Of a stretch of DNA of 36,997 nt, positions 1,109 to 26,301 are shown piece by piece; the first letter of the stretch is position 1, and every line of letters starts with the position of its first letter. The DNA is from Bacillota bacterium (GTDB taxonomy: Bacteria; Bacillota; Bacilli; Alicyclobacillales; SLC66), in the NCBI GenBank assembly GCA_026627345.1, contig JAPNUP010000153.1, forward strand, positions 1-36,997, in the 5' to 3' direction. Both the position numbers and the translations under genes were made by a program. Under the pieces are notes generated by a model. That model ran no database searches. It was not told the DNA's origin and saw only the letters and a program-made list of their open reading frames with translations.

Positions 1109-4100
1109 ATGATGAAGATCAGTGCCACGCTCATTACTGATTGGTGCGGCCCGCAGGCTTGTCAGCGCGGTCGAGACTACTATCAGACGCGACATGTGAC
1201 GGAACTGAAGCGTATAGGGGCCGGGGCCGGTGACTATCATGCCGTCGTGGTGGGGAGCAAACGCTACCACGTGCACGTGAACATCCGCGACTTGGACGAA
1301 GATTCGTTAGAGGCTGAATGCACATGCCCTGCTTTTGAACAGTATTTTTCCTACTGCAAGCATATCGCGGCGGTCTTGTTTGCGATCGCCGATCAACCGA
1401 CAAATGTAGACTTGCCAAGTGAAGGACCGGCACCGGACCCGCGTATGGCGCAGCAGATCTTATCCCTTTTTTCTGATGGCGCACTCCTTCGCGAATCGCC
1501 CATGCCACCTTCCTTGGATGACGACAAACAGGTCTTGCAGTCAGCGTATACCTTACATGTGCTGAGTGCAGGGATTAGGCGAGCTCTGGCGATCGAACTC
1601 AAAGTTGGGCCTAAACGGCTGTACGTTGTGCAGAAAATCAAGGAGTTTCTCGATCACTTGGAGAATCGCTCACCTTATACCTTTACTAAGCTGTTTACCT
1701 TTCAATTTACCGATTACCGTTTTACACCACTCGATTGGTCTATTATGGAACAACTGATTCGCGTGAAGCGCGAGGAAGCGCATTACCGCTTTGCACTTCA
1801 GTACCCGTACGGACAGAGCTTCTCGAGTGGGCAAAATGAGCGTCTCTTGATCCTTTCGCCGAGTGTCTGGCCTGCCTTATCGCCGCTATTAAAAAGTGCC
1901 GATGTGCAGTTTGTCATAGGCAATCAACAGGTAACAAATCCTGTATTCACAGATGAGCCAGTCAAACTGGCGAGTCGTATGAGCAAAGGCGCAAGCGAAG
2001 GCTACCACTTACGCATTGATGGGCTTCGCTCGGTGACACTGCTTCCCGACTATGAAATGGCCATTGGGGAAGGTCGCGTACACACCGTGCCACGTGAAGA
2101 GTTAACGCGCATGGCGAGCCTTCAGTTCACGTTGTCACGCCTGCCTGATACTTCCGTCTTCGTGTCTAGTGAGCAGATCGAACCATTCATGGAGCGTGTG
2201 GTGCCTGAACTGCGTAGATTCGGGTCACTAGAGATCGCGCCTGAGATTGCGGAACAGTTGGTCGACCTTCCGCTTCACATCAGGTTGTATCTCGATCGCG
2301 AGGATGAGCGACTGCTTGCGCATGTAGAGTACGCATACGGGGATCTGCGTATCAATCCGTTGCAACACAGTCCGCGTAAAGAAGAGAAGGATCACATTTT
2401 ACTTCGCGATGTGCAACGGGAAGCGGCGTTCATGGCTGTGCTCGAAAGATCGGCGCTGACGTACGATGGACGTACCCTGTCTACGGATGACGAAGAGGCT
2501 ATCTACGCCTTCTTGCATCACGTGCTGCCGCAATTGGAAGAACTGTCAGAGGTATTCGTTACCCCTGCGCTGCAGTTGCAGACAGATCGGCCCGCCTTTG
2601 TACCGAAAGTGCGCGCAGACATGAATGAAAAGACGAATTGGCTTGACATCAACTTCTCGATCGACGGCATCGATGACGAGCAGATTCAGGATGTGCTGCG
2701 GGCGCTGGTGGAGAAAAGGCGATATTACCGACTCGCAGACGGAAGATTTCTGTCTCTGGAGACAGACGCATTCGCACAGATGGAGACATTTTTAAGTGGT
2801 CTCGATGTGCGTAAAACGCAGATTCGCGGCGCACGCCTGGAGGTGCCGGCGGTGCGCGGCTTGCATCTATTGAACGCTGATCAAGAACTGCGTAACGTCA
2901 AGCTTGGAAAAGCTTTGCGTCAACTGCTGGACAATCTGAAGAATCCGGACAGTCTCGATTTTCCTGTACCTGCATCGCTAGACACGGTCTTGCGCGATTA
3001 TCAAAAGTACGGGTTTCAGTGGTTCAAGACGCTGGCGTACTACCACTTCGGCGGTATTCTCGCTGATGATATGGGTCTTGGCAAGACGCTGCAAAGTATC
3101 GCTTTTATCCTATCTGAGATAGAGAGCAGTCGTGAAGCTGGCTTGCCAACATTGATCGTATGTCCGGCGGCGCTGACTTTTAATTGGCGCAATGAACTGC
3201 AACGCTTTGCGCCTTCGCTTCACGTGGCGCTCGCCGTCGGCACGCGCGACGAAAGAGAGAGCGTCCTCGATGACCTAGAAGGTGTCGATGTACTGATTAC
3301 CTCGTATCCGATCCTTCGCCGCGATGTAGACGCTTATGCTAAGCAGTCCTTTTACGCGCTGATTCTTGATGAAGCGCAGGCCTTTAAGAATCACCAGACG
3401 CAGACAGCGCAAGCCGTAAAGCAGATACAGGCCAGACAGCGTTTTGCCTTGACCGGAACGCCTGTAGAGAACGCGCTGGCTGAACTGTGGTCGATCTATG
3501 ATGTCGTGTTTCCAGATTTGTTTGCCAGCCACAAAGCGTTTCTTGATTTGTCTACCGAACAAGTGGCGAGGCGCATTCGGCCGTTTCTCCTGCGACGGAT
3601 GAAAAAGGAAGTACTAACCGAACTGCCGGATAAAATCGAGACGCTCCAGACGGCAGAACTGACAGTCGAGCAAAAGAAACTGTATTTGGCGTACCTGTCG
3701 ACCCTGCAAAGTGAGACGCGTGAACAGCTGCAAGCGCAAGGACTGCAAAGAAGCCGCATGAAGATTCTCGCCGGTATTTTACGACTGCGGCAGTTGTGTT
3801 GCCATCCTGCCTTGTTTGTCGAACACTATGAAGGCGGCTCAGGCAAACTCGACCAGTTTCTCGAGATTGTCGATGAGTGTATGAGTGGCGGCAAACGGAT
3901 GCTGGTGTTCTCGCAGTTCACGGAGATGCTCGGGATCCTCAGAACGGAGCTGGCACAGCGCGGACTACGCACCTTTTACCTCGATGGCGCGACGCCCGCG
4001 AAAATGCGTGTACAACTATGTGATCGTTTCAATGCTGGCGAAGAGCGGATCTTCTTGATCTCTCTGAAGGCAGGTGGTACGGGACTGAATCTGACAGGCG

Positions 4101-4392: not shown

Positions 4393-4992
4393 ATGACCGA
4401 GTTACGACCGGAGGCGGGGGCTAGTGTTGTGCGCTGTGCCTGGTGCGGCACAGACCCGCTCTATGAGGCTTATCACGATACAGAATGGGGTGTGCCGCTG
4501 TCTGATGATCAGCGGCTATTTGAATTTCTCGTTTTGGAATCGATGCAAGCCGGGCTCAGTTGGCTGACTGTTTTGCGTAAACGCGAACATTTTCGACGCG
4601 CATTTGAAGGCTTTGATCCAGTGCGAGTGGCCGGTTTCGACGACACCAAAATCGCGTCCCTGCTTGCGGACCCAGGGATTATACGCAATCGTTTGAAGAT
4701 CGCCGCGGCTGTGCGAAACGCCTCGGCGTTCTTGCGGGTGGTCGAGGAGGTAGGCAGTTTCTCAGAGTACATGTGGGGGTTTACGGATGGCAGACGCATT
4801 TTGAATCACTGGCGCCATGCCGAAGAAGTCCCGGCGCGCACGGAGTTGTCAGACCGTTTTAGCCGGGACCTCCAAAAGCGTGGATTTTCCTTTGTCGGCA
4901 GCACGATCTGCTACGCGCATCTGCAGGCCACAGGGGTCGTCATGGATCATGTGGTCAGTTGCTTTCGCCACGAGCAACTGATCCGCGCATGA
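4393..4992 (+). CDS. tag: DNA-3-methyladenine glycosylase I
   Basis: A 199-residue protein of normal length for Tag. It excises 3-methyladenine from alkylated DNA to begin base excision repair in the cytoplasm. The 'RCAWCGTDPLYEAYHDTEWG' segment supplies the zinc ligands C15 and H28, and H186 and C190 in 'MDHVVSC' supply the C-terminal pair. The 'LESMQAGLSW' segment contains E49, equivalent to the conserved active-site Glu of E. coli Tag. Start ATG 4393 has GGAGGG upstream. It follows the SNF2 helicase in the same direction with a 32-base gap, and it ends 12 bases before the convergent lipoprotein gene with no room for a separate terminator. Confidence 0.96.
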   Translation: MTELRPEAGASVVRCAWCGTDPLYEAYHDTEWGVPLSDDQRLFEFLVLESMQAGLSWLTVLRKREHFRRAFEGFDPVRVAGFDDTKIASLLADPGIIRNRLKIAAAVRNASAFLRVVEEVGSFSEYMWGFTDGRRILNHWRHAEEVPARTELSDRFSRDLQKRGFSFVGSTICYAHLQATGVVMDHVVSCFRHEQLIRA

Positions 4993-5004: not shown

Positions 5005-5637
5005 TCAACGCATAGTGATCGCGCGCTGCCAGACTGGGAAAGTGTGTTCGCCGACTAGTGACGTGAGCTTTCCATTGTCCTTGAACATCAGGTAGGGGAA
5101 GCCTGTGATGTATTTCATATCGGCGTTGCCGATCAGATACAAAGGATCTTTGATGAAGTGCAGGTGAAGAGCACGCAGTTCCTGTGCCTCGATCGCTTTT
5201 GCCCACTTCAGCGGGAATCCGGGCGGATAGCCAGTGAATACGATCGTCGGCCACTGCGTCATGTGCGACGCGTTTTTTTGTAGCATTACCAAGGTGCGCT
5301 GACAGTGTGGACACCAATAGGCGACAAAGAGAACAGGGTGCGTCATCGCGTCGAGTGTCGTCCATCTGCCAGACGATTCTTGCACATGAATGTGCTCGTC
5401 TGCTGTGACGCTTATGACAGGCATCGTATTCATCTTAGACACCAAAGGTGTGGGATCCATCAGTAACAAGTTTTCAAATTGCGGCCGCGTCCCGGTCGTT
5501 TTCTCTGGCTTGTGAAGTGCAGGATGTACCGTCTTTGTTATCGGCGTAGCCGCGCTAGGGCTCGAGCAACCTGTCAGCAGTGCGGTGAGCGCGGCGGTAG
5601 CGGCAAAGCCGAGTGTTAGCCAGTGTCTCTTGGGCAT
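5005..5637 (-). CDS. Thioredoxin-fold lipoprotein with WCPHC motif
   Basis: A 210-residue predicted lipoprotein. The signal sequence ends in the lipobox LLTGC with C24 as the acylated residue, followed by a Ser/Ala/Pro-rich linker. A thioredoxin-like domain starts near residue 75, with W108-C109-P110-H111-C112 after the strand 'PVLFVAY'. The CPHC dipeptide is DsbA-like, and a cis-Pro region 'TGFPYLMF' is visible near residue 180. It is therefore likely to be a membrane-tethered thiol-disulfide oxidoreductase outside the cell. Start ATG 5637 is chosen because GGAGGG lies 6 bases upstream; an earlier ATG at 5661 adds eight residues but has no ribosome binding site. It is a second extracytoplasmic redox protein within 5 kb of the TlpA-type protein. 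Confidence 0.82.
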   Translation of the reverse strand: MPKRHWLTLGFAATAALTALLTGCSSPSAATPITKTVHPALHKPEKTTGTRPQFENLLLMDPTPLVSKMNTMPVISVTADEHIHVQESSGRWTTLDAMTHPVLFVAYWCPHCQRTLVMLQKNASHMTQWPTIVFTGYPPGFPLKWAKAIEAQELRALHLHFIKDPLYLIGNADMKYITGFPYLMFKDNGKLTSLVGEHTFPVWQRAITMR

Positions 5638-5736
5638 GATGTCCCTCCAATTGCCTATCATCAGACCAAGGATATCGTAGTCGTGTCTGCTGTCAACTAC
5701 CCAAAAGTACTAGTTCAAGTCTATACCTTCGTCTAG

Positions 5737-5785
5737 TACCCGACTACCAAACAGTCGGGTATCCTACTATCGTAAGCTCACGATA
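5737..5785 (+). promoter_or_regulatory. Two inverted repeats in the leader of sedolisin 1
   Basis: The first is a perfect 9-base inverted repeat, TACCCGACT and AGTCGGGTA, separated by 7 bases (5737-5761). The second is TATCGT-aagctc-ACGATA (5768-5785), which ends just before the ribosome binding site GGGAGGG. They could be protein-binding operators or two RNA hairpins in a structured leader. The sequence does not decide between these. I did not find a convincing -35/-10 pair upstream. Confidence 0.6.
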
Positions 5786-5801
5786 CTGGGAGGGAACATG
5801 C

Positions 5802-7520
5802 GTGAAAGGCAAATTCCTTAAGATCGGCGCGGGTTTGGCGCTGCTGGCATCGCCGTTGACGCTTTTGATGACGTCACCTGCTGCATATGCCAGTACAACC
5901 ACTTGGTCGGCTACGGCCACACAGGCATTCAATCCTACGAATGCGACGAATCTCGGTGCGCTCTCCGCATCGGCGCCCGTTCAAGTCGTGCTAGGGTTGA
6001 AGCTTCACAATCAGCAGGAAATGGATACGTACATTCAGGACATTAGCACACAAGGTAACGCCCTATTCGGCGAAAGTTTAACGCCGGCTGAGTTCACCGC
6101 AGACTATGCGCCCACCTCCGATCAAGTGGACGCCGTGACAAGTTATCTGACCAGCCAAGGGTTTACCAATATCTCCGTATCGTCCAATAACTTGCTCATC
6201 ACAGCCAATGGTACAGCGGCGCAAGCTGAATCCGCTTTCAACACGGTGCTCGACCAGTTCAGCCAAGATGGTCAAACCGTGTACGCGAATACCACACCAG
6301 CGGAGATCCCCACTTCCCTCAGTGGAACGGTGGCCGCTGTCCTCGGGCTCAATGACGCGGCGCGCATGACGCCTCCGATTGTCAAAGCGACTGGTACCTC
6401 GACGTCGACTTCGTTGCCTAATTATCCGGCCAGCTACAATCCACAGAACTTCTGGCAAGCTTACGACGTAGGTAATACGCCAACTGGCTCTGGTACGAGT
6501 ATCGCCATTATGGCGGAAGGCGATCTGACACAAGTGGTGAAGGATCTTCGGCTTGAAGAAGCGGCAAACAATCTTCCTCAAGTTCCGTATACCATTGTTC
6601 CAGTCGGCATCGCCAGCAATGACACGTCGGGTGCAGACGAGTGGGATTTAGATACGCAGTATTCGACCGGGATGGCCGGTACGGTGTCTCATCTCTACAT
6701 CTATGACACGACTTCATTGACTGATTCGGACACCGCGCGTGAATTCAACGCGTTTGCCAGCCAAGACGTGGCGAAAGCAGGCAGCGCATCATTTGGTGAA
6801 TGTGAATTCGATCCGTACCTAGACGGCGCGATGCTGGTGGATGACGAGATTTTTGCTGAAGCGGCAGCCCAAGGGCAGACTACCTTCGCGTCAGCGGGTG
6901 ACACAGGTGGTTTCTGCGCGGTCGCGCCGACCAACGGTGTACCAGCCGGCGCGCCAGACGTGAACTATCCGGCGTCTTCTCCTTACGTGGTGGCAGTCGG
7001 CGGCACCACGCTGATCACCAACAGTAACGGCAGTTACGATGAAGAACTCGCTTGGACAGCAGGCGGCGGTGGTACCAGCTACTTTGAATCCGCCCCCTAT
7101 TGGCAGTCTGGTATCGTGCCAGAAACCACAGAAGTAGGGAAGGGCTTGCCGGATATTGCGATGGACGCCGATCCGAATAGCGGCGCCAACGTATGGGTAG
7201 ATGGCACACCTGAGGTTGTCGGTGGCACCAGCTTGTCTTCCCCACTATCGCTCGGGGTGTGGGCGCGACTGGAGAGCGCGCATGGCAATCAGCTTGGCTT
7301 CGCGTCTCCTCTTCTGTATGGTGTGTATGGTAGCGATGGGTTCCACGATATCATCCTTGGTGACTCGGGTCCGTATCCGGCTACACCAGGCTGGGACTTT
7401 GCGACCGGCCTCGGTACCTTTGATGTGAGCAACATGAACACGGTGATGGATCAATACGCGCCGCAGGGACCGGCCCCAGCTCCGGCACCGGCACCGGCTC
7501 CAGGACCTGCAGGTCCCTGA
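5802..7520 (+). CDS. Sedolisin-family (S53) secreted serine-carboxyl protease 1
   Basis: A 572-residue acid protease precursor. Residues 1-30 are a signal peptide (cleavage about AYA-S). Residues about 55-195 form the S53 propeptide (Pro-kumamolisin-like), and the catalytic domain follows. Catalytic residues seen are E280 and D284 in 'DEWDLD', S477 in 'GGTSLSS' and the oxyanion Asp, probably D337 in 'GECEFD', a spacing that resembles Pseudomonas sedolisin. The calcium site is the 'HDIILG...GWDFATGLG' region. The protein ends in a Pro/Ala/Gly tail of about 19 residues. Start GTG 5802 follows GGGAGGG; the ATG at 5798 is out of frame and stops after seven codons. These enzymes cleave proteins at acidic pH outside the cell. 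Confidence 0.94.
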   Translation: MKGKFLKIGAGLALLASPLTLLMTSPAAYASTTTWSATATQAFNPTNATNLGALSASAPVQVVLGLKLHNQQEMDTYIQDISTQGNALFGESLTPAEFTADYAPTSDQVDAVTSYLTSQGFTNISVSSNNLLITANGTAAQAESAFNTVLDQFSQDGQTVYANTTPAEIPTSLSGTVAAVLGLNDAARMTPPIVKATGTSTSTSLPNYPASYNPQNFWQAYDVGNTPTGSGTSIAIMAEGDLTQVVKDLRLEEAANNLPQVPYTIVPVGIASNDTSGADEWDLDTQYSTGMAGTVSHLYIYDTTSLTDSDTAREFNAFASQDVAKAGSASFGECEFDPYLDGAMLVDDEIFAEAAAQGQTTFASAGDTGGFCAVAPTNGVPAGAPDVNYPASSPYVVAVGGTTLITNSNGSYDEELAWTAGGGGTSYFESAPYWQSGIVPETTEVGKGLPDIAMDADPNSGANVWVDGTPEVVGGTSLSSPLSLGVWARLESAHGNQLGFASPLLYGVYGSDGFHDIILGDSGPYPATPGWDFATGLGTFDVSNMNTVMDQYAPQGPAPAPAPAPAPGPAGP

Positions 7521-7574: not shown

Positions 7575-8805
7575 AGCGCACGCGTACAGGCAAAGCCAAA
7601 GGACCGCGGAAGACGCCAGATTGTCGCCAGTCGATGTGCTCATAGGCAGGTTCTATACCGATGTAATGGGTGAGTAGCGACTCGATTGCGATCACGCCTT
7701 CCATGCGGGCCAGAGGCGCGCCGATACAGAAATGAGGTCCTGCAGCGAAGGCCAGATGGCGGTTCGGATGTCGCTGTACATCCAGTTGATGAGGGTTTGC
7801 AAAGACGTCTGGGTCGCGATTGGCCGCGCCTAAGAAGACATTGACATTGTCACCGCGCCGTATCACATCTTGGCCGATCACCACATCTTGTGCCGCAAAG
7901 CGATTGGTCAATTGCACCGGGCTTTCAAAGCGCAAAAACTCCTCCACTGCGCTTGGCATTAGCGCGGGCGTCTCTCGTAGTAGCTGGTGTGTGTCGGGGT
8001 GGGCCAACAGCAGCGCGACAGAGTTGCCGATCAAGTTGACCGTGGTCTCATGCCCGGCAAACAGAAGCAATACGCAGGTGGCCAGCAACTCATCCTCGGA
8101 TAGGCGGGTGCCTTGTTCTTCTGCTGCGATCATACTGCTGATGACGTCTGCCTTCGGTGCTTTGCGGCGTGCGCGCACCAGTTGGCGAAAGTAATCCATC
8201 ACCTGCTTGGCCATTTGACCGCCACGCTCAACGGTAGCTTGGTCGACAGATCCGAATTCAAGAGTACTGGAAATCGCCGTGGACCACTCGCGAAACATCG
8301 CTCGGTCTTCTGCAGGTACGCCAAGCATTTCGGCAATGACGATCACAGGTAACGGAAAAGCATAGGCATTAATGAGGTCAAAATGTTCCTGATCGCGCAA
8401 AGGGGTCAGCAAAGACTCGGCAATCGCACTGATGCGCGGTCCTAATCGTTCGATCATACGCGGCGTAAACGCCTGATTGACAAGCGAACGCAGGCGCGTA
8501 TGTGTGGGGGGATCGCGAAACAGCATCCAGTTGTCAAACATCTGATACAGCGGATTGCGCTCAGCGCCGGATGGGCTAGGCGCAACCGATGGGTTTTGCA
8601 TAAGCGTCGTCTGTTCCTTGATAAAGCGGTGGTCTTTCAAGACCATCGCTACATCTTCGTAGCGCGTAAAAAGCCACTCCCGGTAGTGGTCCTTTTCGCT
8701 CAGTAACCGGGGCGCCTGCATTCTCATCTGATCGTACATGGGGTACGGATTGGCCCTAAAAGCAGGCGAGGTAAAATCGAGATCGGCAAGTGCGCCTTCT
8801 GTCAT
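7573..8805 (-). CDS. Cytochrome P450
   Basis: A 410-residue soluble bacterial class I-type P450. The I-helix motif is 'AGHETT', the K-helix ExxR is in 'EEFLRFES', and the heme loop 'FAAGPHFCIG' places the axial thiolate at C360. Length and motifs fit the CYP107-like group, which hydroxylates varied substrates using a ferredoxin/reductase partner. No partner gene lies nearby, so neither the substrate nor the electron donor can be inferred. Start ATG 8805 has GGGAGGG about 9 bases upstream. A possible promoter, TAGGCA-N17-TATGAT, lies upstream on the minus strand but is weak. Confidence 0.95.
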   Translation of the reverse strand: MTEGALADLDFTSPAFRANPYPMYDQMRMQAPRLLSEKDHYREWLFTRYEDVAMVLKDHRFIKEQTTLMQNPSVAPSPSGAERNPLYQMFDNWMLFRDPPTHTRLRSLVNQAFTPRMIERLGPRISAIAESLLTPLRDQEHFDLINAYAFPLPVIVIAEMLGVPAEDRAMFREWSTAISSTLEFGSVDQATVERGGQMAKQVMDYFRQLVRARRKAPKADVISSMIAAEEQGTRLSEDELLATCVLLLFAGHETTVNLIGNSVALLLAHPDTHQLLRETPALMPSAVEEFLRFESPVQLTNRFAAQDVVIGQDVIRRGDNVNVFLGAANRDPDVFANPHQLDVQRHPNRHLAFAAGPHFCIGAPLARMEGVIAIESLLTHYIGIEPAYEHIDWRQSGVFRGPLALPVRVR

Positions 8806-13302: not shown

Positions 13303-13340
13303 GGACGTTAAACATGATGCAGGAAATGAGGGTTTGGACA

Positions 13341-13868
13341 GTGGCATCTTTTGTACCGAGTAAAGAGATTCGCGAAGCGACGCTGGCTGCACTGGCTAAG
13401 CGAGGCGTGGCATTAGAAGAGATTGCGGAGTTGACTTTGTTTTTACAAAAGGATTATGTGCCGGGCCTTTGTTTGGAGACATGTCTGATGAGCGTACAGC
13501 ATGTGCTCGAGAAGCGCGAAGTGCAAAATGCGATCTTGACAGGCATCGAGCTTGATGAGCTGGCAGAACGCGGGCAACTGTCGCAACCGCTGCAAACGAT
13601 GATTGAAGCCGATGAAAGCCTGTACGGTGTGGACGAAATCCTCGCGTTGTCGATTCTGAACATCTACGGGAGCATCGGCTACACGAATTACGGCTACATC
13701 GACAAACTCAAAGTTGGTGTCCTGCAAAGGCTCAATGACAAGTCGTCCGGGCAAGTTCACGCGTTCCTCGATGATCTGGTCGGCGCTGTGGCGGCAGCCG
13801 CGGCCAGTCGGATCGCCCATCATCATCGCGGCGAATTGGAGCGCGCAGCCGAGCAGCAGACTGACTGA
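13341..13868 (+). CDS. pgpA: Phosphatidylglycerophosphatase A family protein (YpjQ-like)
   Basis: A 175-residue protein of the PgpA superfamily in the Firmicutes YpjQ form. Family segments seen are 'IAELTLFLQKDYVPGL', 'REVQNAILTGIELDELAERGQLS', 'DESLYGVDEILALSI', 'NYGYIDKLKVG' and 'FLDDLVGAVAAAAASRIAH'. PgpA enzymes dephosphorylate phosphatidylglycerophosphate at the membrane during phospholipid synthesis; for the YpjQ group this activity is less well shown. GTG 13341 is chosen because GAGGG lies 8 bases upstream. The ATG at 13314 falls inside the truncated repeat unit, has no ribosome binding site and would add nine residues outside the family alignment. Confidence 0.85.
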   Translation: MASFVPSKEIREATLAALAKRGVALEEIAELTLFLQKDYVPGLCLETCLMSVQHVLEKREVQNAILTGIELDELAERGQLSQPLQTMIEADESLYGVDEILALSILNIYGSIGYTNYGYIDKLKVGVLQRLNDKSSGQVHAFLDDLVGAVAAAAASRIAHHHRGELERAAEQQTD

Positions 13869-13896: not shown

Positions 13897-14259
13897 CTAG
13901 ATGGACAACCCGAGCCATGCGCCGAGCAGTCCGAACAGGATACTGGCAGCCAGATAGCTGAACATGGTCAGAAAAGCCCGGCGATCGGTCAAGGTAATCG
14001 ACTCGAACATGAAAGTAGAAAAAGTGGTATAAGCGCCTAAAAATCCGATGCCGACAGCGCTTCGCAACCAATAGTCGAATACGTTGTTTGGGCGCGCTGC
14101 GGCTGTGACAAAACCGAGTAAAAAGGCTCCGGTTATATTGATGAGAAAGGTCGCTAGTGGATAGTTCGCTTTCCAGAAGCGTCCGATCAGATTCGTGATC
14201 GCAAAGCGCGTCCATGCGCCGAAGATTCCGCCTACGGCGACCCCTGCCCACTCGATCAT
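13897..14259 (-). CDS. fluC: Fluoride ion channel FluC/CrcB, subunit 1
   Basis: A 120-residue four-helix membrane protein that exports fluoride. Typical marks are 'GGIFGAWTRFAI' in helix 1, 'GAFLLGF' after 'LATFLINIT' in helix 2, and 'GAYTTFSTFMFE' in helix 3, which carries the Phe residues lining the fluoride path and the region of the central Na+ site. It overlaps the upstream fluC copy by 4 bases (ATGA), so translation is coupled. Firmicutes often encode two FluC proteins side by side that assemble as an antiparallel heterodimer, and this pair fits that pattern. A fluoride riboswitch heads the operon. Confidence 0.95.
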   Translation of the reverse strand: MIEWAGVAVGGIFGAWTRFAITNLIGRFWKANYPLATFLINITGAFLLGFVTAAARPNNVFDYWLRSAVGIGFLGAYTTFSTFMFESITLTDRRAFLTMFSYLAASILFGLLGAWLGLSI

Positions 14260-14681
14260 ACGGCTGCCTCCTTCTTTTCCCCGCCGAGTCGTGCTCCTAG
14301 AAAAGCGAAGGCAAAACCACCGAGTAGACTGAGCACTAGATAGACAATGGCCTCCGCCGCTTTACCCTTGTGAAAGAGTTTGACGGTCTCCACCGAGAAT
14401 GTGGAAAATGTCGTGTAGGCCCCGATGACACCCGTGCCGAGTCCGGCGCGAAACCACTGTGGCACGCGCCATTTCCAAATCGAGATCGTATAAAACCAGG
14501 CGAGAAAGAAGCTTCCGCTCCAGTTGATGATCAGGGTTGCCAGCGGGAACGACTGAAGACTTGGCACCAACAACTCAACGCCTTCTCGCAAAGGCGCGCC
14601 GATGAGACCGCCGAGACCGACCGCTGCGTACTGTTTGAGAGGCTCCAGCCAGTTTCTTTTGGAGGAGTGGATGGTGTCCAT
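14256..14681 (-). CDS. fluC: Fluoride ion channel FluC/CrcB, subunit 2
   Basis: A 141-residue second FluC paralogue with an N-terminal extension of about 15 polar residues. Visible marks are 'AAVGLGGLIGAPLREGVE' in helix 1, 'LATLIINWSGSFFLAWF' in helix 2 and 'GAYTTFSTFSVETVKL' in helix 3. Its helix-1 motif has P-L in place of the usual W/L-T-R-F/Y order, a difference common in the second partner of paired FluC proteins. Start ATG 14681 has AAAGGAG about 7 bases upstream; the longer in-frame start at 14732 would overlap the preceding gene and lacks a site. It probably pairs with the overlapping downstream copy to expel fluoride that enters as HF at low pH. Confidence 0.94.
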   Translation of the reverse strand: MDTIHSSKRNWLEPLKQYAAVGLGGLIGAPLREGVELLVPSLQSFPLATLIINWSGSFFLAWFYTISIWKWRVPQWFRAGLGTGVIGAYTTFSTFSVETVKLFHKGKAAEAIVYLVLSLLGGFAFAFLGARLGGEKKEAAV

Positions 14682-14700
14682 TGCATGGCTCCTTTGCCGG

Positions 14701-14943
14701 TTATGACTCGATCTGACGGATCGAGCCTTCAAGGCTCCCGTCTTCTCGCGTCCCTATGATGGTAACAGCCAAACTGTCGCCTTCTTGCAGTTTCTGCGCT
14801 GGGTGCTCAATCTCGAACCAAGCGATCTCGGCGAGGGGAATCCATACTGCTGTACCACTGCCCGTGCGGATCCACGCGCCTGTTTCATCGAGTTCAAAGA
14901 CGTGCCCCTCGATGCGTGTACCCACTATGTCGTTTTTCGCCAT
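14701..14943 (-). CDS. Small S1-like/OB-fold protein, first gene of the fluoride operon
   Basis: An 80-residue protein with a strong ribosome binding site (AAGGAGGG, 7 bases before ATG 14943). The pattern 'VGTRIEGHVFELDETGAWIRT' followed by 'AVWIPLAEIAWFEIEHPAQKLQEGDSLAVTIIGTREDGSLEGSI' follows the strand order of an S1 RNA-binding domain: G-x-V, G-A-x-[VI], I-P-x-x-E and G-D-x-[LV]. No catalytic motif is present. It lies directly behind the fluoride riboswitch and 19 bases before the first fluC gene, so it is controlled with them. Its role is unknown; RNA binding is a family-based guess from sequence pattern alone. Confidence 0.75.
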   Translation of the reverse strand: MAKNDIVGTRIEGHVFELDETGAWIRTGSGTAVWIPLAEIAWFEIEHPAQKLQEGDSLAVTIIGTREDGSLEGSIRQIES

Positions 14944-14970
14944 CAGAGACCCTCCTTCTATAACATAAAG

Positions 14971-15018
14971 GCCCCGACAAGATTAGCCCTGCGCTGTGCG
15001 CGGACGTCTTGTAGGGGC
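14971..15018 (-). terminator. Riboswitch expression-platform hairpin
   Basis: On the minus strand GCCCC-u-ACAAGA (the 3' end of the aptamer) can pair with UCUUGU-c-GGGGC (14971-14982) around a loop that holds a small GCGC-aca-GCGC stem. The tail is CCUUUAUGUUAU, so the U-run is short. Because the 5' arm contains the conserved CCUAC end of the aptamer, folding is mutually exclusive with the ligand-bound aptamer, as expected of a fluoride ON switch. The terminator strength is uncertain. Confidence 0.65.
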
Positions 15019-15055
15019 TATCATCCGAATATCGGCTTACGCGAGCTCCATCGCT
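15011..15055 (-). ncRNA. Fluoride riboswitch (crcB motif) aptamer
   Basis: Read on the minus strand, the aptamer begins AGCGAUGGAGCUCGC, giving stem GCGA/UCGC with the conserved GAUGG. It continues UAA, the hairpin CCGA-uau-UCGG, and then UGAUAGCCCCUAC with the conserved UGAU and CCUAC. The pseudoknot GGAGCU/AGCCCC pairs except for one A-C mismatch. This matches the order of elements in the known crcB fluoride aptamer. It lies upstream of an operon that encodes two FluC fluoride channels, which is independent support. Confidence 0.87.
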
Positions 15056-15073
15056 ATGAGATTCTCACGAGCT

Positions 15074-15103
15074 AAGCTATCACGTTTATGTGCTCGGCGT
15101 CAA
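15074..15103 (-). promoter_or_regulatory. Promoter of the fluoride-riboswitch operon
   Basis: On the minus strand: -35 TTGACG (15103-15098), an 18-base spacer, and TAGCTT (15079-15074) with an extended -10 element (TGA immediately before it). Transcription would begin just before the aptamer. Confidence 0.6.
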
Positions 15104-15198
15104 CCCTGAGAAAGACGTAGGATTTGTATTGTGAGTAGCCTAAGACAACGGTATCATAGTTGTTACAGCGTTTTTAGAGACGAATAGGAGTGAGGGGA

Positions 15199-16284
15199 AT
15201 GGCCGATCGGATTCGCATAGGAATCATTGGAAGTGGCGGCATCGCAGGTGCGCACGTGCGCGCGTATTTGCAGATGCCGGACGTCGAGGTGGTGGCGGTC
15301 GCGGACATCATCCCTGGCAAGGCCGCGGAATTCATCGCACGCCACCAGGTGACTGGCGCACAAGCGTTTGATGATCATCGACAACTGCTTACGCTGGATC
15401 TCGACGGCGTCAGCATCTGTACGCCAAACGTGGCGCACTATGAAACGGCGATCGATGCGGTAGAAGCAGGTAAACACGTGTTGGTCGAAAAGCCGCTGTC
15501 GTATACGCTGGAGCAAGCCGTCGAGATGGTGCGCGCAGCTAAGCAGGCTGATCGCATGCTGACCGTGGGGTTTCAACCCCGCTATGATCCGAATATGAAG
15601 ACGGTCAAACAGATCATCCAATCTGGTGTGCTCGGTAAAGTCTACTATTTACAGACAGGTGGCGGTCGCCGCCGCGGAATGCCAGGCGGCACTTTTATCC
15701 GCAAGGAGCTGGCCGGCTCAGGTGCGATTGCAGATATTGGTTGCTATTCGCTCGATCTTGCACTTGCGGCGCTGGATTATCCGAAGCCGCTTACCGTATC
15801 TGCCTACACATCGTCCTACTTTGGGACGAATAGAAAGTACCACGCTGAAGCGGACCGCTTTGACGTGGAGGACTTCGGAGTGGCACTCGTACGGCTCGAA
15901 GGCGGCATTGTCCTGAATTTCAAAATCGCTTGGGCGATGCATATGGATACCCTTGGACCCACTTTGTTTCTCGGAACAGACGCTGGATTGCGTCTCACGC
16001 CGGGCAGCTCCGGGCCGTGGGGTGGCGTATGGGATGGAGGTATCTCTTCGATCTCTTTATTTCAAGATACACTCGGCAAGCATACAGAAACAGTCGTGCC
16101 GGTCGAACAACACAACGTCGATCGCTTCTACGAAAAGGTGCGCGATTTTGTCTCTGCGATTCAAGAAGGACGCGCTGCGCCGATTCCGGCAGAGCAGATT
16201 ATCCGCAATCAAGCCATTATCGATGGTATCTTGAAGTCGGCACAGCTCGAGCGGGAAGTCGAAGTGGTGATCCCCGAGGTCTAG
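15199..16284 (+). CDS. Gfo/Idh/MocA-family NAD(P)-dependent oxidoreductase
   Basis: A 361-residue protein. The N-terminal Rossmann fold shows 'IGIIGSGGIAGAHVRAYLQ' for NAD(P) binding, and 'HVLVEKPLSYTLEQA' carries the family EKP motif whose Lys is catalytic. The C-terminal domain has 'GAIADIGCYSLDLALA', in which the D-x-G-x-x-x-x-D/H pattern marks the sugar-binding site. Relatives oxidise or reduce sugars, inositols and related polyols; the substrate here is unknown. Start ATG 15199 follows AGGAGTGAGGGG. The ThuA-like gene 2 kb downstream belongs to a family that often accompanies such oxidoreductases in sugar degradation, so a shared pathway is possible. Confidence 0.9.
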   Translation: MADRIRIGIIGSGGIAGAHVRAYLQMPDVEVVAVADIIPGKAAEFIARHQVTGAQAFDDHRQLLTLDLDGVSICTPNVAHYETAIDAVEAGKHVLVEKPLSYTLEQAVEMVRAAKQADRMLTVGFQPRYDPNMKTVKQIIQSGVLGKVYYLQTGGGRRRGMPGGTFIRKELAGSGAIADIGCYSLDLALAALDYPKPLTVSAYTSSYFGTNRKYHAEADRFDVEDFGVALVRLEGGIVLNFKIAWAMHMDTLGPTLFLGTDAGLRLTPGSSGPWGGVWDGGISSISLFQDTLGKHTETVVPVEQHNVDRFYEKVRDFVSAIQEGRAAPIPAEQIIRNQAIIDGILKSAQLEREVEVVIPEV

Positions 16285-16374: not shown

Positions 16375-18162
16375 TCACAGTGGACGTTCGGCCAGCGCAA
16401 GGGCGTTGTCTATCCATTCGCCGAGATGCGCATACTGCGCGCTTTGAAGCGTTCGGATGTCTGCGAGAATCTCCGTCCTAACGGTTGGTAGGCGATGGGT
16501 CGTGCAAAGCAACTCATAGAGTTCGATCCGCAAAAGCCAGTCGTCTGAGAAAGAGTCTTTTAGCCGTAAGTGGATCGCAGTCAAGCGCGTGTCGATCTCG
16601 GAGTCGGTCAGCGGGCTCGTGCCGGCCGCCAGATCTTCACGCAATTGGCGAACGTCGCTGTACAGTTGCAAAAGTAAAGACACCTCTCGGGTATCTGTGT
16701 GTGCAATAGATACGGCAGGCTCGGCAGGTGTCTTTGCTGTCGTATCTGCATAAAAGTGTTCAGGATCTGCCGCATCGGCAAATACAGAGCGGATTGTGGC
16801 GCCGACTGCCATATCAAAAGGCCCATAGGCGGGAGCAAAGAGCACCTTGTCATCCCAGGTCACGGTGCAATCAGACCAAGTAATCAACACCAGTTTGCCT
16901 TGCTGCCAAGTCAGTTTCGTCACTAGGCCTCCGACTTCTACGCCACTGCTAAAGAGCAGTCTGCCTCGGGTACCTTGTACGATTCCTAGACGTTTGAGGT
17001 CGCTCACTGTGCAGTCTTGCAAAGCACGGTCTAGTCCGACGATACGACCTACAGGAGAACTGAAACCTTCTGGATGTCGGTTTTTCCCTTGTTCAGGCAG
17101 TTGCGATCCATCATACGCCAGTGCGCATGCGCTGCCAAAGCGAAGATAAGCCGCTTCCCCATGATGATCGGTCAAGACTTCCGTGACTGTTCCGCTGACT
17201 TGCAACCCAGAATCGTACACGACGGTGGCCGTATGGCCGGAACGCACTGCCTTGCGCAGCCCTTCGACACCGCCGTGCATAAACGCCATGCGTTTGGCGA
17301 ATGTCCGAACTGCATCCGTCAGTTGGTCGAAAGACTGACAAACGAATAGCTGCGGTTGCTGCGTGGTGATGTCAAATGGCGTCGCCAGACAGGCTTCCAG
17401 GTCAAACGGTAGTTTCTGTACAGCGTCTGTCAAACAACTGCGACTTTCACCGATCGAAGACAGCAGTCCTGCGCCGTAAATGAGCGGGTGCTCGAGATCG
17501 CCGTATAGTCCGTATTCCACCGTCCACCAATACAGGCGCGCGATGAGTTCGGCTTCGGAAGGCACTGTGGCCGCCGCTTGCTTTTGCGCTAAGACTTCCT
17601 TGGCTTGTGCGATCTCCTCTGGCGAGGATGTGCCGTCTTCGAGAATGTCAGACAAGTGCTTGACTGCATCGAACACTTCATGCTCCGCCTGGCTCGCCAG
17701 CGCCTTGGCGCCGATCTCGCCAAACACTTTCACGTAGTGTGCGTAGCCCGGGTCGCACAAGATTGGTGCGTGACCTGCCGCCTCGTGCAAGATGTCTGGA
17801 GCCGGGGTATAGTCGATGTGCTCGAGCTTGCGAATGCCAGTGGCGATCGGAAGGATGCCATGCGCCTGAAAATCGTAGAAAGCGACTCCCGGGATGAAGC
17901 CACCAATCGTCTCTGCGCCAAAGCCATGCGGTCCTAGGCAGCGGTTCATTTCCTCGACATGCGGAATGCGTTCAATGCTGATACCGGAGGCTGTCAGTCC
18001 ATCCAGATAAGCAGGATGCGCCCGGCCTTCCAAAAAGTATCTGTTTTGCCGCATCACAAATCGCCAGACCGCCTGATCAACCGGCGTGTAGGCCTCATAA
18101 TGCTGACGTACGACGTAAGACCGCAAGTGGGCGGGTACCCGTCGTGATGCCGTGATCGTCAT
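16375..18162 (-). CDS. phhA: Aromatic amino acid hydroxylase, long form (phenylalanine 4-monooxygenase-like)
   Basis: A 595-residue protein, about twice the length of typical bacterial PheH but like the long form known in the Bacillus cereus group. The catalytic domain covers residues about 20-300. Iron ligands are H126 and H131 in 'HEAAGHAP' and E216 in 'LYWWTVEYGL'; an insert of about 40 residues between them is rich in Glu and Ala. Such enzymes hydroxylate Phe (or Trp/Tyr) with tetrahydropterin and O2. The C-terminal half has two similar beta-rich modules (about 316-355 and 404-445) of unknown role. Start ATG 18162 has GGAGGG 7 bases upstream, and a TTGACA-N17-TACGAT promoter precedes it. 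Substrate preference cannot be told from sequence. Confidence 0.9.
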   Translation of the reverse strand: MTITASRRVPAHLRSYVVRQHYEAYTPVDQAVWRFVMRQNRYFLEGRAHPAYLDGLTASGISIERIPHVEEMNRCLGPHGFGAETIGGFIPGVAFYDFQAHGILPIATGIRKLEHIDYTPAPDILHEAAGHAPILCDPGYAHYVKVFGEIGAKALASQAEHEVFDAVKHLSDILEDGTSSPEEIAQAKEVLAQKQAAATVPSEAELIARLYWWTVEYGLYGDLEHPLIYGAGLLSSIGESRSCLTDAVQKLPFDLEACLATPFDITTQQPQLFVCQSFDQLTDAVRTFAKRMAFMHGGVEGLRKAVRSGHTATVVYDSGLQVSGTVTEVLTDHHGEAAYLRFGSACALAYDGSQLPEQGKNRHPEGFSSPVGRIVGLDRALQDCTVSDLKRLGIVQGTRGRLLFSSGVEVGGLVTKLTWQQGKLVLITWSDCTVTWDDKVLFAPAYGPFDMAVGATIRSVFADAADPEHFYADTTAKTPAEPAVSIAHTDTREVSLLLQLYSDVRQLREDLAAGTSPLTDSEIDTRLTAIHLRLKDSFSDDWLLRIELYELLCTTHRLPTVRTEILADIRTLQSAQYAHLGEWIDNALALAERPL

Positions 18163-18181
18163 CGCAGTTCCCTCCATAGCT

Positions 18182-18237
18182 AGTGAATTCGCTTTCACTC
18201 GCAAAATTATCGTAGAAGAGTCAGCCCAAGATGTCAA
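18182..18237 (-). promoter_or_regulatory. Promoter of the aromatic hydroxylase gene with adjacent inverted repeat
   Basis: On the minus strand: -35 TTGACA (18237-18232), a 17-base spacer and -10 TACGAT (18214-18209). Just downstream, in the leader, is the inverted repeat AGTGAA-agcgaa-TTCACT (18199-18182), a possible operator. Confidence 0.65.
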
Positions 18238-25212: not shown

Positions 25213-26301
25213 TTGGCGGATATGATAGAGCCTATTCGTTATACAGAAGACAGACTTGTGATGATCGATCAGACGCAGTTGCCGGAAACGGTGGCGTGGT
25301 TGCAGTTGGAGACAGTGGAAGAAGTGTGGCACGCCATTCGTGAAATGCGCGTTCGCGGGGCTCCGGCGATTGCGATGGTGGCGGCGTATGGATATGCGAT
25401 GGCCGCAAGAAGCGCGCAGGCTAAGACGCCCATGGAACTGCAAGCGCGACTGGCGACGGTGAAGACGTATCTGGAAAGCGCGCGACCGACCGCGGTCAAT
25501 CTGTTTTGGGCGATGGAGCGGATGGCGGCTGTGACGCTTTCTTTGTGCGACGAGGCGCAAAAACTGGCGCATGCGGATGAACGGCAGATGGTGAAGTGGG
25601 TAGTCGCAGGTTTGTTTGACGAAGCACGGGCGATCCAGGCAGAGGATGAGACATCTTGCCGCGCGATCGGCGAAAACCTCCTGACGCTCATGCACGATGG
25701 GATGGGCGTGTTGACGCATTGCAACACAGGGACGCTCGCCACTAGCAAATACGGGACTGCTTTGGCCGGTATGTATTTGGCGCATGAACGTGGCTGGCAT
25801 ATTGCTGTGTTTGCTGATGAAACGAGGCCGGTGTTACAAGGCGCGCGTTTGACAGCTTGGGAGTTACAACAAGCCGGCATCGATGTCACCCTAATTTGTG
25901 ACAATATGGCGGCGACCGTGATGGCGCAAGGCAAAGTGCAGGCGGTGATGGTCGGAGCAGACCGCATTGCGGCTAACGGCGATACCGCCAATAAGATCGG
26001 AACGCATGGCTTGGCCGTGCTGGCAAATCATTTCGGAATTCCGTTTTATGTGGCAGCCCCTTTGTCCACCTTCGATCTGGCCACGCCAAACGGAGCGGCT
26101 ATCGTTATTGAAGAGCGCGATGAGCGGGAGATTACGGAACCGTTTGGCAAACGCATCGCGCCAGCGGAGATTCAGGTGTACAACCCAGCGTTTGACGTGA
26201 CGCCGCATGAACTGATTAGCGCGATCGTCACAGAGCGTGGCGTTTTACCTAGACCTGATCTAGCAGTGATGTCCGCCTTCACGGGTCGCTGGTCCTCGTA
26301 G
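25213..26301 (+). CDS. mtnA: S-methyl-5-thioribose-1-phosphate isomerase
   Basis: A 362-residue enzyme of the methionine salvage pathway that converts methylthioribose-1-phosphate to methylthioribulose-1-phosphate. It shares the fold of eIF2B subunits. The catalytic residues match C170 in 'LTHCNTGTLAT' and D250 in 'VGADRIAANGDTANKIG'; 'MRVRGAPAIA' is the N-terminal signature. The TTG start at 25213 has GGGAGG 7 bases upstream, and an ATG at 25222 is the alternative. Other mtn genes are absent here and no SAM riboswitch fits in the 45-base upstream gap, so expression probably comes from the upstream genes. Confidence 0.96.
   Translation: MADMIEPIRYTEDRLVMIDQTQLPETVAWLQLETVEEVWHAIREMRVRGAPAIAMVAAYGYAMAARSAQAKTPMELQARLATVKTYLESARPTAVNLFWAMERMAAVTLSLCDEAQKLAHADERQMVKWVVAGLFDEARAIQAEDETSCRAIGENLLTLMHDGMGVLTHCNTGTLATSKYGTALAGMYLAHERGWHIAVFADETRPVLQGARLTAWELQQAGIDVTLICDNMAATVMAQGKVQAVMVGADRIAANGDTANKIGTHGLAVLANHFGIPFYVAAPLSTFDLATPNGAAIVIEERDEREITEPFGKRIAPAEIQVYNPAFDVTPHELISAIVTERGVLPRPDLAVMSAFTGRWSS

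Follow-up and report, generated by a model that had tools for sequence, protein, structure and literature searches.

The fluoride unit described here lies on the minus strand of a 36,997-nucleotide stretch of DNA (the window) and consists of a leader, a gene for an S1-fold protein and two fluC genes, at the coordinates and in the gene order given by an initial annotation made from the sequence. The S1-fold gene (14701..14943 (-); Pfam S1, AlphaFold/Foldseek) comes first in the operon, encodes 80 amino acids and is preceded by the Shine-Dalgarno sequence GAAGGAGGG (14958-14950 (-)). The two genes that follow, fluC 1 (CrcB; 141 aa, 14256..14681 (-), ATG at 14681) and fluC 2 (CrcB; 120 aa, 13897..14259 (-)), overlap in an ATGA and, in keeping with their initial assignment, score 92.7 and 88.6 bits, respectively, above the Pfam CRCB cut-off of 32.9 bits. 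The operon is flanked by a PgpA-like gene (13314-13868 (+)) and, on its other side, by a divergent gene for a Gfo/Idh/MocA-type oxidoreductase (15190-16284 (+)). An oxidoreductase gene of this type also flanks the operon of a related genome, G003 (L095, 3354-4412 (+)), where it is co-directional; this may be a coincidence. Farther along the window, 16375-18237 (-) encodes a biopterin-dependent aromatic amino acid hydroxylase of 620 aa with approximately 300 residues outside the Pfam domain. PADLOC found nothing.

The promoter is the weak point of this anatomy. A probable -35 element, TTGACG (15103-15098 (-)), is clear, and TTGAC recurs at an equal distance 5' of the aptamer in the aligned leaders of relatives. 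The possible extended -10 element (TG-A-TAGCTT; TGATAGCTT, 15074..15082 (-)) is poor and aligns with AGTATAnT in those leaders. A consensus scan reported neither a minus-strand promoter nor a terminator for the fluoride operon; the terminator was missed because its loop is too long for the scan and its U-tract is weak. The extended -10 promoter proposed initially is thus partly convincing, in that a -35 element can be added to it while its -10 element stays doubtful.

The leader contains a variant fluoride (crcB) riboswitch aptamer (15007..15054 (-)), supported by RF01734, a model built from the leaders of the window's bacterial family and a pair table. A permissive scan of 1.4 kb against all Rfam families matched RF01734 at 15063-15005 (23.6 bits; E 6.6e-4), and the aptamer had an E of 3.1e-4 in a whole-genome search. 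Because the score falls short of the RF01734 gathering score of 34 bits, the default Rfam scan did not find the riboswitch in the window. The aptamer core (GAUGGAGCU...GAU-GCCCCUA), P1, the second stem and the six-position pseudoknot are all present and, as expected for RF01734, a terminator overlaps the aptamer and fluC lies downstream. The GC-paired P1 has 3 bp, one pair fewer than in RF01734, the outer pair being absent; 20 of 23 strong aptamers in the window's family lack the C needed for it. The pseudoknot departs from RF01734 as well: the loop GGAGCU (15049-15044 (-)) and the 3' strand AGCCCC (15019-15014 (-)) form Watson-Crick pairs at five of six positions; position 1 is a U-A pair, whereas position 4 is mismatched as A-C (A15047, C15016). 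Since the core, P1, pseudoknot and terminator features are combined with a score under the gathering cut-off, we term the aptamer a class variant. A further difference from the fluC operons of RF01734 is the first gene, which here encodes the S1-fold protein.

The 3' pseudoknot strand reappears as the 5' strand of a predicted terminator hairpin (GCCCC-ACAAGA / UCUUGU-GGGGC, with the tail CUUUAUGUUAU; 14971..15018 (-)), an arrangement typical of ON switches (PMC2864571, PMC11077080). Both folding and covariation uphold this overlapping alternative hairpin, which had been noticed at the outset. The leader folds 3.5 standard deviations below its shuffles (z -3.5), only 1 of 200 of which folds as well, and in a set of 16 leaders the variable base of the pseudoknot strand, when C, faces G in the terminator in 11 of 11 cases and, when U, faces A in four of five, showing that the terminator stem covaries with this base. 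The reading of the leader as a crcB-type aptamer held up likewise, with its sub-threshold RF01734 match and with near-identical cores that precede fluoride genes throughout its acidophilic family (Ferroacidibacillus, Sulfoacidibacillus and mine-drainage MAGs). A family aptamer model (R1) built from 14 aligned leaders gave 25 strong matches of at least 39 bits in the family's 18 genomes, the next match scoring 23.7 bits; the window aptamer scores 66 bits, a match by construction since its sequence is part of the model. A 17.7-bit match to the aptamer model at 25510-25580 (+) of the window is without the 3' core and is probably due to chance.

Previous work showed that, under its assay conditions, switching requires one U-G wobble, located at pseudoknot position 1 (PMC11077080); this wobble occurs in 35 of 36 well-scoring aptamers of the sister family. 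Of 23 aptamers in the window's family, 13 have U-A at position 1 and 17 have A-C at position 4; the window aptamer carries both. The idea that A-C at position 4 is unique to the window's family was rejected, as the count of 0/36 in the sister family came from a biased comparison of best Rfam hits. The order was searched with exact patterns for this reason, and A-C at position 4 was found in 13 of 19 matches in the window's family and in 11 of 86 in the sister family, indicating enrichment rather than uniqueness. Within the sister family, position 1 is U-A in eight of the 11 matches with A-C at position 4 and in none of the 75 with A-U (P = 3e-9, a value that ignores shared ancestry). Counts over the whole order, uncorrected for ancestry, are 17 of 24 for A-C at position 4 together with U-A at position 1, and 79 of 81 for A-U together with U-G. 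Judging from these counts, the weak pair of the pseudoknot tends to sit at either position 1 or position 4. An A-C pair at position 4 could be protonated and pH-sensitive. The pseudoknots of this family are natural sequences with which the requirement for one weak pair claimed in PMC11077080 can be tested.

The 80-residue product of the first gene almost certainly adopts an S1 fold. It matches Pfam S1 (PF00575) with 35.9 bits against a cut-off of 22, its AlphaFold model from the family alignment (pLDDT 82.6) has five strands and the S1 helix, and its best PDB neighbours in Foldseek are the S1 domains of GSP13 (top) and YabR, so that the S1/OB pattern first read from the letters is also what structure prediction returns. 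The closest relatives of the protein (39-49% identity) are confined to the window's bacterial family, where the subfamily occurs in 10 of 18 genomes with 114-134 bits. It was found in none of 41 sister-family genomes, and nothing above about 60 bits was found outside the family among 398 Bacilli and 398 phylum genomes, the best outside matches lying mostly in open frames of ribosomal-protein-S1 length. A GTDB genome scan with one short peptide pattern, which may miss distant relatives, yielded eight loci, all in the window's family and including Sulfoacidibacillus thermotolerans and Ferroacidibacillus organovorans.

Among the 11 complete genes of the S1 subfamily, five are standalone (one each in the window's genome, G000, in S. 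thermotolerans, G015, and in F. organovorans, G005, and two in G012) and the other six encode fusions with a family I pyrophosphatase. All five standalone genes follow an aptamer and precede fluC-fluC. Counting the genes of G013 and G016, which are included by contig position and homology, 10 of the 11 lie behind a fluoride aptamer, and six adjoin fluC. This recurrent proximity to fluC in relatives, which the initial annotation had proposed to look for, lends weight to its suggestion that the S1 gene is important, and genomic context makes it very probable that the protein belongs to a lineage-specific fluoride regulon. The gene is nevertheless dispensable, since four genomes (G004, G011, G006 and G008) have fluC pairs without it. 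A search of open-access literature found no paper linking an S1 domain or protein to a fluoride riboswitch, CrcB or fluoride.

In the fusions (G002, G003, G007, G009, G013 and G016), S1 makes up the N-terminal part of a 250-residue protein that also carries a pyrophosphatase domain. The order in G003 is aptamer, enolase, fluC, fluC and the fusion gene; in G009 and G007 an aptamer is followed on one strand by a run of complex I/formate-hydrogenlyase-like genes and then by the fusion gene, and in G013, where the fusion gene likewise stands behind an aptamer-led cluster of this kind, the aptamer lies 8 kb upstream on the same strand. The G016 fusion probably also stands behind an aptamer-led complex I/hydrogenlyase-like cluster, the pieces of which are on separate contigs. 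Only the G002 fusion (L096, G002:C16, 3500-4700) has no fluoride aptamer upstream, and the fluC pair of that genome is on another contig. Genes already known from fluoride riboswitches include those for enolase, pyrophosphatase and formate hydrogenlyase (PMC11139923, PMC2864571, PMC5533749). For example, the fluoride-resistance operon of Enterobacter cloacae FRM, ppaC-uspA-eno-gpmA-crcB, is riboswitch-led and, like that of G003, combines an exporter gene with genes for enzymes that fluoride inhibits, but it is without an S1 protein and its pyrophosphatase is annotated as Mn-dependent and of the other family (PMC5533749).

The C-terminal domain of the fusions shares its fold with family I inorganic pyrophosphatase (Ppa), and this fold is kept in the model of the fused domain (pLDDT 81). 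What sets the fusions apart from Ppa, besides the S1 domain in front, is the loss of residues that we take to be catalytic in family I (E20, K29, E31, Y51, Y55, D65, D67, D70, D97, D102, K104 and K142 in E. coli numbering). In an alignment to E. coli Ppa, with the family confirmed independently by a PDB search, the fused domains do not conform to this pattern: all fusions carry Glu, His or Asn in place of Asp67, Lys29, Glu31 and Asp70 are also lost in the g7 and g9 fusions (E31 to R, D70 to R), and Glu20, Asp97 and Asp102 are also lost in the G003 fusion (D97 to N, D102 to N). The dN/dS values, which are rough and based on few sites, are 0.09-0.33 for this domain and 0.14-0.52 for the fused S1. 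We regard the fused pyrophosphatases as pseudo-enzymes since catalytic residues are lost yet purifying selection persists, and on the alignment they are most likely catalytically dead. A plasmid tblastn search gave only ordinary pyrophosphatases among the matches listed. The window's genome has a family II pyrophosphatase and none of family I; a simple role of the window S1 as partner of the latter was therefore rejected, and the standalone protein must have another partner there.

GSP13 (YugI) and YabR, which are stress/ribosome proteins of Bacillus and the best structural matches, likewise consist of one small S1 domain, but they are approximately 130 aa long compared to 80 aa here, share only about 22-25% identity with the window protein and, to our knowledge, are not fluoride-regulated. 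They also differ in their RNA-binding face, the canonical form of which is missing from the window S1. When the subfamily is aligned with E. coli S1 domain 3, YGAF corresponds to (S/T/Q/R)GAW, in which the tyrosine is replaced and the second aromatic is kept as Trp, LLHITD to (F/W)(V/I/L)PLAE, in which Pro replaces the histidine, and WKRVKHP to WFEIEHP, in which the basic KRVK loop reads FEIE. If, as we assume from the PNPase S1 structure, residues of the F19, F22 and H34 type bind RNA, those lost are RNA contacts. The second aromatic is the only canonical RNA-binding residue that the subfamily retains, and because of it weak RNA binding is possible. With these residues replaced and the active site of the fused partner broken, function cannot be read from the S1 fold, and for the same two reasons the protection of RNA suggested at first finds no backing.

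Taken as a whole, the locus is best explained as a fluoride-response operon with an S1 accessory protein, a reading that we consider reasonably probable. Cytosolic fluoride would rise through HF entry at low external pH, and Mg-bound fluoride would stabilise the pseudoknotted aptamer, withholding the AGCCCC strand from the terminator and thereby allowing transcription into S1-fluC-fluC. The two FluC proteins would assemble into a double-barrelled fluoride channel, and the S1-fold protein would serve as a dedicated member of the regulon, either standalone or as the N-terminal domain of a pseudo-pyrophosphatase. As a soluble accessory protein, it would bind a protein partner via its conserved acidic/aromatic face, with the translation/transcription machinery or a fluoride-sensitive metalloenzyme as candidates. 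We give about equal weight to the protein being such an adaptor, acting through protein contacts rather than as a canonical single-strand RNA binder, and to its not being one.

The protein could instead be a fluoride-induced analogue of GSP13 (YugI)/YabR that, by binding to ribosomes or mRNA, adjusts translation as the cytosol is acidified by HF and Mg-dependent enzymes become inhibited. The closest predicted structures, the single S1 domain with its ribosomal-S1-like sequence and the stress-operon context would all fit, but the F19- and H34-type residues have given way to polar residues and Pro, FEIE stands in place of KRVK, the protein is acidic (pI 4.5) and relatives carry it fused to a pseudo-pyrophosphatase, so we consider this explanation unlikely. 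Another possibility is that the standalone protein is a functionless leftover of a fusion that has lost its dead pyrophosphatase part, as its end coincides with the start of the fusion linker and the fused pyrophosphatases are already degenerate. This is very unlikely given the purifying selection on the standalone gene (dN/dS 0.21 for G005/G012; few sites, rough), its retention beside fluC in three genera and the 13 residues (G8, D19, G22, W24, P36, L37, E39, E44, E46, H47, P48, G69 and R76) that are invariant over nine sequences; the S1 tree gives no order of events. We are similarly sceptical of a NusA-like or RNA-chaperone role in which the protein would target the leader itself and feed back on termination in its own operon: the protein is encoded first after the terminator in five of five standalone cases, but last or nearly last in the fusion operons, and the family's leaders also occur in genomes without the S1 gene (G004, G011 and G006). 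Finally, S1 domains are common and some family members are without the gene, but a chance neighbour with no link to fluoride is scarcely credible when 10 of 11 genes lie behind one of only about 25 aptamers in 18 genomes and six of 11 beside fluC.

The fluoride-response operon with an S1 accessory protein, our preferred reading, has a bolder extension that we regard as a long shot. The lineage-specific S1-fold module, either by itself or fused to a selectively maintained pyrophosphatase without catalytic activity, would be a non-enzymatic effector or regulator of fluoride stress, and the required weak pair of the riboswitch would have moved to an A-C that protonation can stabilise, such that fluoride and cytosolic acidity are read jointly. 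The operon type is already known; the S1 subfamily, the S1/pseudo-pyrophosphatase and the shifted weak pseudoknot pair are new. The genes of known fluoride regulons encode exporters, antiporters and additional copies of enzymes that fluoride inhibits. Since the S1-fold protein and the S1/pseudo-pyrophosphatase match none of these classes, they suggest that acidophiles, for which HF makes fluoride stress acute, may have a further layer of fluoride tolerance; the family includes cultured hosts (Ferroacidibacillus and Sulfoacidibacillus).

Several other loci of the family came to light. In G011 (L100, G011:C16), an aptamer at 2911-2960 lies 48 nt before a gene for a sigma-70-family factor (3008-3847; Pfam Sigma70_r2, r4), and a second aptamer (4741-4791) precedes a gene for a 577-aa sulfocyanin-domain membrane protein (5099-6832); fluoride-switch control of a sigma factor would mean that the regulon extends further. 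One G013 locus (L093, G013:C121) has four aptamers in two divergent pairs (1465-1514(-) and 1836-1889(+), 7714-7763(-) and 7931-7980(+)), with downstream genes that include an FtsH-like AAA/M41 protease, a MoxR ATPase and a GPR1/FUN34/YaaH-type transporter. The aptamer-led MoxR gene of G013 is echoed in G008 (L103, G008:C100, 6827-2703(-)), where a gene for a MoxR ATPase and two unassigned genes stand directly before the fluC pair on the same strand; no aptamer was found at this MoxR-fluC locus. In addition, the fluoride operons of the g4 genomes (fluC operon) and of G007 (hydrogenlyase-S1-pyrophosphatase operon) are each directly preceded by a gene resembling type II NADH dehydrogenase (L097, L102, L104 and L092 623-1690).
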